Positions 45,589-62,782 of a stretch of DNA of 64,000 bases are shown here, one piece after another (the stretch's first letter is position 1; each line of letters starts with the position of its first letter). The stretch is from NCBI RefSeq assembly GCF_001730525.1, contig NZ_MDFN01000015.1:62001-126000 (forward strand), written 5' to 3'. A model generated the notes under the pieces. That model searched no databases, was not told the origin of the DNA, and saw only the letters and a list, made by a program, of their open reading frames with translations. Both the position numbers and the translations under genes were made by a program. This stretch comes from Arcticibacter eurypsychrophilus. Its GTDB lineage: Bacteria; Bacteroidota; Bacteroidia; Sphingobacteriales; Sphingobacteriaceae.

Positions 45589-45595
45589 CAGCGCT

Positions 45596-45661
45596 AAGTG
45601 GACTGATTTGCTTTGTTCCGAAAAGGAATGAGATTGCAACCACGTAAAAAAATCGCTAATA
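45596..45661 (+). ncRNA. SAM-II-like riboswitch in the metK leader (enlarged loop)
   Basis: The leader follows the SAM-II order: a P1 strand GTGG (45598-45601), CTGATTTG, a loop, GATTGCAA, the closing CCAC (45640-45643), then an A-rich strand and GCTAA. GATTT (45605-45609) can pair with AAATC (45650-45654) to form the pseudoknot. The loop is longer than in classical SAM-II and contains a small hairpin (TTCC/GGAA, 45616-45628). SAM-II elements bind S-adenosylmethionine and repress translation or transcription. Position ahead of metK fits feedback control. No terminator follows, so translational control is more likely. Confidence 0.72.
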
Positions 45662-45739
45662 CCTGTTTATTTACTTCTTCGCGCAATCTTAGCTGCATGC
45701 CTTCCGTTTTAGCTTATCTTATTTCTAAAACTATTTAAT

Positions 45740-60831: not shown

Positions 60832-61204
60832 TTTCTATTAGTTGCTTGTTTAGAATCCATTATTTTAGGTTTAAAGGAAGAGTTCAGAAAGGGTTCCTCC
60901 TTTTCAACATGGCATCAAGAATAAGGATAAGTTTCTTTATTGACTTGCTTAAAGCCACAGTTGTGGTTTATATTTTCTAAAAATCATATAGAGTCTTGCA
61001 GAGAGAAGGATTAAGCGGAATTTGTTATGTCAAAAGTATACTCAAGATATTTATTGTGAAATAGTTATTAGGTAAGCTATTGAAAAATAACGATGAATAC
61101 TGTCTTTCAGGCGGAAAATGTAAGGGGGAAAAACCGGAGAGGGTTTTGTTAGGAAGCCCTCTCCGGTTTTTTAGGTTCAAGTATTAAATTAGACCTTATT
61201 GAAT
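60832..61204. other. 373-bp intergenic region between mscL and the OsmC gene
   Basis: No gene is seen. It has a small hairpin after mscL (around 60951-60970, AGCCACAGTTGTGG) and the strong two-way terminator at 61129-61171. Confidence 0.6.
61129..61171. terminator. Strong bidirectional terminator
   Basis: A 15-bp stem (61129-61143 with 61157-61171) with core ACCGGAGAGGG / CCCTCTCCGGT, a 13-nt loop, and A/T tracts on both sides. It can end OsmC (minus) and anything read from the mscL side (plus). Confidence 0.9.
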
Positions 61205-61618
61205 TTAGCTAAGTAATTTTGCTTCAGAAGAGATTTCTGTCTTCAACAATTTACTAACAGGACAATTCTGCTCTGCATTTGTAACTAGTTCTTGAAATTT
61301 GTCTTCCTCAATTTTAGGGACTTTAGCCTCAACACTTAAATGAGATTTTGCAATCACACCATTTTCAAAAGTAATTTCACAAATGGTTGTTAATTGATCT
61401 GCTATAAAACCAGCCTCGGTTAATACAGAACTTAACATCATAGTAAAACAGCCTGCATGTGCAGCTGCAATTAGCTCTTCAGGATTGGTTCCAACACCTT
61501 CTGCAAAGCGTGAGTTGTATGAATATTGTGTATGATCAAGAACAGTACTTTGAGTAGTTAAGTTCCCGTTACCTTCTTTGACTGATCCGGTCCAGACAGC
61601 TGTTGCATTTCTTATCAT
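61205..61618 (-). CDS. OsmC-family peroxiredoxin
   Basis: 137 residues. The two redox Cys are in AAHAGCFTMML (about 53-58) and QNCPVSKLLKTE (near 118). OsmC/Ohr proteins reduce organic hydroperoxides. The sequence SYNSRFAEGVGTNPEEL places it in the OsmC subgroup. A strong terminator lies 34 bp after the stop. A distant -7 box candidate (TAATTTTG on the minus strand, 61801-61808) is about 180 bp upstream. Confidence 0.95.
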   Translation of the reverse strand: MIRNATAVWTGSVKEGNGNLTTQSTVLDHTQYSYNSRFAEGVGTNPEELIAAAHAGCFTMMLSSVLTEAGFIADQLTTICEITFENGVIAKSHLSVEAKVPKIEEDKFQELVTNAEQNCPVSKLLKTEISSEAKLLS

Positions 61619-61867: not shown

Positions 61868-61899
61868 TTTGCAAGGAACAGATAAACGTATTATATTTG
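61868..61899 (+). promoter_or_regulatory. Consensus -33/-7 promoter of a small RNA
   Basis: TTTG (61868-61871), a 20-bp spacer and TATATTTG (61892-61899) fit the Bacteroidota TTTG-N(19-21)-TAnnTTTG promoter exactly. Predicted start is about 61903-61906. Confidence 0.75.
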
Positions 61900-61905
61900 T
61901 ATCAA

Positions 61906-62056
61906 GCAAAAGGGAATAAAAAACCTGAGCACACTGTAGCGTTTGGAACAGGTTAAAATCTTGAAGGTTCGATTCCTTCTCTAACAGCTCCTTTCAATAA
62001 TTTAGGTTTATAATTGGTTAGTTTGAGCTCTCGCCCATCGAGAGCTTATTTTTTTT
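61906..62056 (+). ncRNA. Candidate small RNA of about 150 nt with a tRNA T-arm-like hairpin
   Basis: It begins behind a complete -33/-7 promoter and ends in a 10-bp terminator. AACCTG (61923-61928) can pair with CAGGTT (61949-61954), and AAACCT with AGGTTT (62003-62008); these two pairings exclude each other. GAAGG-TTCGATT-CCTTC (61963-61979) is a perfect T-arm mimic of 5 bp with a 7-nt T-loop. CTGTAG (61935-61940) may pair with CTAACAG (61981-61987) with one bulge, like an acceptor stem. There is no anticodon arm or CCA end. No protein start fits the length. The RNA family is not recognised. Confidence 0.65.
62024..62056 (+). terminator. Intrinsic terminator of the small RNA
   Basis: GCTCTCG (62027-62033) pairs with CGAGAGC (62039-62045) around a 5-nt loop, extended to 10 bp by flanking pairs, followed by eight Ts. 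Confidence 0.9.
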
Positions 62057-62253: not shown

Positions 62254-62688
62254 TTAATTCAATCTGATCATCGTTTCAGTTTTCCCTATTAAGCTAAATC
62301 CTATGAATCCTCTTACATTCAATTCGCCTTCTTCAGATAAAGATATTTTACAATCGTAGGTTTTTCCTGATCTGGGATCATAAATTTCACCTCCTGTCCA
62401 TTCGTGATCCTGATTATAAGTGAAGTTTTTTAATATTTCGATACCTTTCAAGTCCCTGTCCCGTAGAGCCGTTTCCGGATTATTATTATCTTTCCTAACA
62501 TTCCCATTCTTATCAAAAGGATCTTTTAACCAGTATAATTTTCCAAAAAACTGGTTCCCTTTCTTATAGATTTCAATTTTGGCTTCGCCTTTTTGGTCGA
62601 TCCACTTGCCAACAATGGTATCATCATCCAAAGCGAAAATAGGACAGGTAGAAACAAGTAAAAGACAGGAAAGAAGCAAGTATCTCAT
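62254..62688 (-). CDS. DUF2147-family exported protein
   Basis: 144 residues from ATG 62688 (MRYLLLSCLL); an ATG 9 bp upstream is possible. A signal peptide of about 20 residues ends in IFA. The family pattern is IVGKWIDQKGEAKIEIYKKGNQFFGKLYWL and YDPRSGKTYDCKISL, with GFIGFSLIGKTE at the end, read in short pieces. The function is unknown. It stands alone and converges with the small RNA. Confidence 0.85.
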   Translation of the reverse strand: MRYLLLSCLLLVSTCPIFALDDDTIVGKWIDQKGEAKIEIYKKGNQFFGKLYWLKDPFDKNGNVRKDNNNPETALRDRDLKGIEILKNFTYNQDHEWTGGEIYDPRSGKTYDCKISLSEEGELNVRGFIGFSLIGKTETMIRLN

Positions 62689-62782
62689 TATGCACATTTT
62701 GATTGCTTAAGGTAGGGATAAATGTGAAATAACTCAGAACATCTTTAGAAAAACCTATTGGGAAATGTTACAAAGCAACAAA

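Follow-up and report, generated by a model that had tools for sequence, protein, structure and literature searches.

The locus at positions 61868 to 62056 of the DNA stretch analysed here (the window; 64,000 nucleotides) raises the question of what RNA it would encode. A preliminary description had proposed an undescribed small RNA that could mimic tRNA elbows, act as a switch between two pairings, or belong to an unidentified Bacteroidota motif. Direct reading of the sequence bore out the landmarks on which that proposal was built. The promoter is of the Bacteroidota type, TTTG-N20-TATATTTG (61868..61899, + strand), with TTTG at 61868-61871 and, after 20 nt, TATATTTG at 61892-61899; transcription is expected to start near 61904-61907. 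The claimed stretch of about 150 nt without a reading frame was found as well, as the ORF list of the window holds no ORF of at least 30 aa overlapping 61900-62056. The perfect T-arm hairpin, GAAGG-TTCGATT-CCTTC (61963..61979, +), is present. No other 5-bp Watson-Crick stem in the 64 kb closes a TTCGANY loop, and 0.1 such stems are expected per first-order random sequence. The intrinsic terminator (62024..62056, +) consists, as claimed, of a 10-bp stem (62024-62033/62039-62048) with the loop CCCAT and eight Ts (62049-62056). The neighbours, named by eye from their translations, are an OsmC-like gene (61205-61618, −) and a small gene (62254-62697, −). Between convergent genes, at 61131-61173, lies a probable bidirectional terminator, a strong inverted repeat rich in GC (CCGGAGAGGG...CCCTCTCCGG) and provided with a T-run.

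Database searches placed the element in no known family. Rfam, at gathering and relaxed thresholds, gave only chance-level matches at the element, and neither Flavo-1, the Bacteroidales motifs nor any other Rfam motif reached its gathering score there. The sole Rfam match of the window is a SAM-II riboswitch at 45592-45669 (+). ARAGORN reported no tRNA at the element; with the anticodon arm absent and the tRNA models silent, the window copy does not belong to the tRNA family (RF00005). A pseudogene of a canonical tRNA was rejected, as the body matches the tRNA-like family described below and normal tRNAs for Asp, Leu, and Ser are encoded elsewhere in the genome. tmRNA was also rejected, as ARAGORN found none and there is no tag frame.

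The origin of the T arm was indicated by a search of the same genome. Paralogues at 92-93% identity were obtained, two in tandem on contig C1 and one on C26, together with tail-only copies on C88 and C18. On C1 and C26, a complete tRNA-like RNA stands ahead of the same tail; it has the acceptor TGTAGGG/CCCTACA, a D arm, the anticodon loop TTGTCNC, a long variable region, a T arm, and G73. The genome thus has three full tRNA-like paralogues, and more than 160 copies were found elsewhere. Matching these, a truncated tRNA-like domain occupies 61934..61987 (+) of the window. Its 5′ acceptor strand CTGTAG (61934-61939, +), its T arm, and its 3′ acceptor strand TCTAACAG (+), the last base of which is G73 at 61987, remain, and a linker stands in place of the D, anticodon, and variable arms; the acceptor helix is imperfect, with a bulged A and a mismatch. 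Both full copies on C1 are missed by ARAGORN, and they score 33.2 and 31.8 bits against the Rfam tRNA model, above its cut-off of 29. The window copy scored 17.6 bits (E 0.011) against model R1, which was built from 53 full tRNA-like copies, and that alignment was convincing solely over the T arm and the 3′ acceptor end. As judged from the paralogues, the T arm of the window is the product of descent from a full tRNA-like RNA and not of chance or convergent mimicry. The elbow mimicry was accordingly abandoned, while an RNA that is non-coding, absent from Rfam, and provided with a meaningful T arm was retained. We concluded that the window element is real and belongs, in truncated form, to a composite family of tRNA-like RNA and sRNA.

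The other half of the composite is the tail, 61988..62056 (+), a conserved block that is the predicted mature sRNA behind a cleavage at G73. It is a separate multi-copy sRNA; its standalone homologues, each with its own promoter immediately ahead, begin at the corresponding position. The most-conserved portion of the whole element, overlooked in the preliminary description, is the 26-nt seed AATAATTTAGGTTTATAATTGGTTAG (61996..62021, +) ahead of the terminator, recognized from genome copies, a class-wide draw, and duplex tests, and complementary to susC leaders. Seven seed copies were found in the genome. A fuzzy search yielded 59 distinct matches, most of which are a seed with a terminator and a few of which are chance. 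The two parts lie either directly behind a promoter, as a gene of about 60 nt, or behind a tRNA-like or truncated body, and the terminators vary in sequence between copies. Among the 395 genomes of the draw, all 15 from Sphingobacteriaceae had the seed core, one of them (G025) only as a single one-mismatch site; outside this family, single one-mismatch hits were about as frequent as with the reversed-pattern control.

Viral sequences carry the module as well. In IMG/VR, 28 contigs (L412-L439) contain an exact match to the 21-nt seed core, usually as CTTTTCATAATTTAGGTTTATAATTGGTTAG followed by a terminator. Several of these cores stand directly behind phage tRNAs; in L420, the tRNA is a tRNA-Asp that lies 13 nt upstream. 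Phages may carry a SusC-silencing RNA. Searches of INPHARED and of plasmids yielded one convincing phage, Tenacibaculum phage JQ. Its near seed match (L440, 1201-1229) lies between an HNH endonuclease gene and the terminase large subunit gene. Class-type tRNA-like genes were present in 47 IMG/VR contigs (L365-L411), some of them beside ordinary tRNA genes.

The seed, AGGUUAAUAAAaGAUU, is similar to that of FopS, AGGUUUAUAAUUGGUU. FopS of B. thetaiotaomicron is a multicopy sRNA made of a seed and a terminator, and it blocks translation at susC starts; RbpB, an RRM protein, counteracts this repression, and the FopS seeds lie inside the RbpB footprint (PMC11697453). Hence, susC leaders were tested for pairing with the seed. 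In the genome of the window, 14 of 46 susC starts reached p<=0.05 against dinucleotide shuffles, compared with 1 of 41 other genes (rank-test p 6e-5), and in a second genome (G021) the figures were 15 of 29 susC starts and 4 of 40 control genes (p 6e-5), the control genes coming from few loci and the susC starts having been chosen by rule. The best predicted sites fall within −60 to +14 relative to the susC start codon. The strongest (−22.1 kcal/mol) is that of the susC gene in which the window begins (C6:60333-63356). No excess was seen when the D arm or the terminator was used as the query against the susC leaders. With the reversed seed, a weak excess appeared (5/46, p 0.018), so that base composition contributes part of the susC signal. 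A search of the genome for the seed complement at 0-1 mismatches returned other sRNA copies only, and the targets are therefore imperfect duplexes. By analogy with FopS, the tail probably pairs with and silences susC mRNAs. These data also bear on another reading, in which seed and terminator form a general 3′-end cassette (a protein site or stabiliser plus a terminator) conserved for protein binding, and the susC complementarity arises incidentally because the leaders are AT-rich. The RNAs ahead of the cassette do differ widely and include phage tRNAs, and the weak excess of the reversed seed and the position of FopS seeds in the RbpB footprint would suit it. However, shuffles and non-susC genes were without effect, the result was replicated in the second genome, and the sites cluster at the start codon; we give this reading a minor, though appreciable, chance.

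The account that we favour, with moderate confidence, is that of processing followed by susC repression. By computation we observed the family membership of both halves, their conservation, the covariation of the full body described below, and the excess complementarity at susC starts. RNase P and RNase Z read the acceptor strands, the T arm, and G73. These parts are common to the full and the truncated versions, and several phage seeds also stand behind tRNAs, which led us to regard the tRNA-like part as a processing handle. For this account we infer transcription, cleavage, RNA-protein binding, and repression as follows. The promoter would drive a transcript of about 150 nt, with a reduced tRNA-like RNA as its 5′ half and a FopS-like sRNA as its 3′ half. 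The acceptor/T-arm helix would be recognised, RNase Z would cut behind G73 and RNase P at the 5′ side, and an sRNA of about 69 nt, with a 5′ end like that of the standalone members, would be released. This sRNA would pair via AUAAUUUAGGUUUAUAAUUGGUUAGUUUGAG with several susC mRNAs near their start codons, blocking translation of the outer-membrane importers. The genome encodes three RRM_1 proteins, one of which may assist the pairing. The imperfect acceptor helix of the window copy, a minimum-energy fold that lacks the T arm, the share of composition in the susC signal, and the tRNA-like copies that carry no seed weigh against this account. If this is true, sRNA control of glycan importers extends from gut Bacteroides to environmental Sphingobacteriaceae, and the tails of tRNA-like transcripts are a new way of making sugar-uptake sRNAs.

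Orthologues of the window element were identified in G005 and G003, so that the locus is found in three genomes in all. Between the window and G003, 61962-62056 shows about two differences, whereas divergence is much greater in the flanks and the linker has also changed. Both promoter boxes are kept in G005 and G003, though much of the spacer is altered in G003. The T arm is identical across the three orthologues save for one loop base; conservation of stems in relatives had been named earlier as a check. The loss of the D, anticodon, and variable arms, the finding of the locus in only three genomes, and an internal duplication in the C26 copy would also be expected of a decaying pseudogene of a duplicated tRNA-like gene, in which the terminator region alone lingers. 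Against such decay, G003 retains near-unchanged promoter boxes, T arm, seed, and terminator beside the diverged flanks and linker, and a comparable reduction to acceptor and T arm, with unrelated filler, is seen in genus g6 (L028, L035). We therefore consider a decaying pseudogene improbable.

The full body is that of a class-II tRNA-like RNA: a 7-bp acceptor, a D arm, a GUC anticodon arm, a long variable arm, a T arm, and G73. Across the 53 non-redundant copies, 96.5% of cells were paired and 9 pairs had changed in both partners; no shuffle out of 500 reached the observed value, and sliding the partner lowered pairing to 43-64%. The 7-bp acceptor and the 5-bp T stem are fully paired in 166 parsed copies and in 36 copies from other families, and the D and anticodon stems covary between families. 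The T stem reads GAAGG in 136 of the 166 parsed full copies, GGAGG in 25, and GTAGG with a compensating CCTAC in 5. The apical hairpin of the variable arm is maintained over 77 sequence variants, most of which have four-base loops. With R1 at E<=1e-14, the tRNA-like RNA was detected in 41 of 295 class genomes from some 17 families. Tandem arrays of three to five copies occur at L165 and L227.

The seed is present on 82 of 178 tRNA-like copies, and it drifts between genera, as the tails of L291 and L292 indicate. Tails CATACAGGTTTATTGATTGGTA or CATAAGGTTTATTGATTGGTA stand behind the tRNA-like RNA at these two loci (genera g8 and g5). In Pedobacter, the second tRNA-like RNA of a tandem (L036, L131, L135, L216, L243) has a longer variable region of 67-76 nt, often with GGGTTGACCAC; these second copies bear a different tail, ATGAATAATAAGTTAGTTAA with a terminator. 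In the literature searched, there was no description of the tRNA-like RNA or of the sRNA tail. The intergenic regions extracted in Weinberg 2010 were delimited by protein, tRNA, and rRNA genes; a copy annotated as a tRNA would thus have bounded such a region. The tRNA-like RNA is thus widespread, previously unlabelled, and missed by a standard tRNA finder.

The five strong AspRS determinants are G73, G34, U35, C36, and C38 (PMC9976931). Among 63 copies they are present in 63, 61, 62, 62, and 62, respectively, an agreement with tRNA-Asp identity in which the counts are slightly optimistic, the copies having been gathered without an anticodon motif in the search but with a parser that favoured a GUC loop. 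All 63 copies have U1-A72 in place of the G1-C72 of bacterial tRNA-Asp. The long variable arm and G73 would also fit SerRS, and AspRS is thus not the sole candidate charging enzyme. U33 occurs in 55 of the 63 copies and is replaced by G in family f2, and position 37 is T in 49, C in 9, G in 5, and never A. A decoding tRNA combines U33 with a purine at position 37, a pattern from which the full paralogues depart, and the usual pyrimidine at position 37, with the G at position 33 in f2, argues against ordinary decoding; the genome of the window has a normal tRNA-Asp. The T-arm RNA might itself be the effector, binding a tRNA partner such as a synthetase, a modification enzyme, or EF-Tu, with the tail being secondary, as the near-invariance of the T arm in the three orthologues and the AspRS determinants of the full relatives could suggest. 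We consider this quite unlikely, as the window copy is without the anticodon arm, which holds four of the five determinants, and the tail is the best-conserved part and the sole part common to the standalone copies.

Taken over its full 162 nt, the RNA has no more stable a fold than its shuffles (z −0.56). Its 77-nt 3′ part does fold better (z −2.41), the terminator giving most of the signal, and the T arm is absent from the minimum-energy fold. AACCT (61922-61926) can pair on paper with CAGGTT (61949-61954; the pair spans 61922..61954, +) or with AGGTTT of the seed (62004-62009), the latter being used in the minimum-energy fold, but the switch once proposed between them is highly improbable and judged outside the function, as AACCT and CAGGTT are both gone in G003, where the promoter boxes and the T arm persist along with the seed and the terminator, and the AACCT strand is missing from the full-length paralogues.

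The function of the full tRNA-like RNA is hinted at by its neighbourhood. A Lrp/AsnC regulator gene (PF01037) lies divergent to it, typically about 160 bp away, in 102 of 130 loci (L004, L016-L027, L130-L249, L280-L312), which are not independent, many coming from one family and a few genomes being counted twice; eleven genomes of other families also show the pairing. Lrp/AsnC was never found in another arrangement, and 11 of the 28 remaining loci have a flank too short to tell. This is a strong hint that the two genes form a functional pair. The C1 and window copies, which are without a divergent Lrp/AsnC gene, look like secondary duplicates. Tentatively, the parent could be an undescribed class-wide class-II tRNA-like RNA, Asp- (or Ser-) charged, non-decoding, and paired with Lrp/AsnC, the trailer of which serves in Sphingobacteriaceae as an sRNA that represses susC. 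An amino-acid-responsive regulator could in that case steer sugar import through the tail of a tRNA-like RNA, and phages would carry both parts. The Lrp/AsnC pairing and the aspartate determinants make the function of the tRNA-like RNA directly testable.

Parts of the composite have counterparts in known systems. E. coli 3′ETS-leuZ, an sRNA derived from the 3′ trailer of a tRNA precursor, acts as a sponge for other sRNAs. The tail resembles it as a predicted sRNA from the trailer of a tRNA-type transcript and differs in having its own terminator, a seed common to standalone genes, and predicted mRNA targets. The window copy and tmRNA both have an acceptor and a T arm without an anticodon arm; the architecture of tmRNA otherwise differs. 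Allo-tRNAs, irregular tRNAs with a likeness to the full tRNA-like RNA, have a long variable arm, SerRS elements, and sometimes a GUC anticodon, can be polycistronic, and are known from Clostridia, Proteobacteria, and Acidobacteria, with 8/4 or 9/3 acceptor/T stems (Mukai et al. 2017, in PMC7609411). In contrast, the tRNA-like RNA of Bacteroidia has 7/5 stems. The closest likeness is to FopS/GibS (RF04319; PMC11697453). Both RNAs are multicopy, have an unpaired 5′ seed followed by an intrinsic terminator with the core AGGUUwAUAA, and have predicted sites at susC start codons in genomes with RRM_1 proteins, and FopS, too, has been reported in a phage. The tail scored 16.1 and 18.4 bits against the FopS model, for which the gathering score is 56. 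Its seed continues UUGGUUAG, where FopS differs, and it belongs to another bacterial family; many of its copies are tails of a tRNA-like RNA, whereas no such body is reported for FopS. The tail is thus FopS-like without being a FopS member by the Rfam model, and within the processing and susC account towards which we lean, it would work as FopS does.
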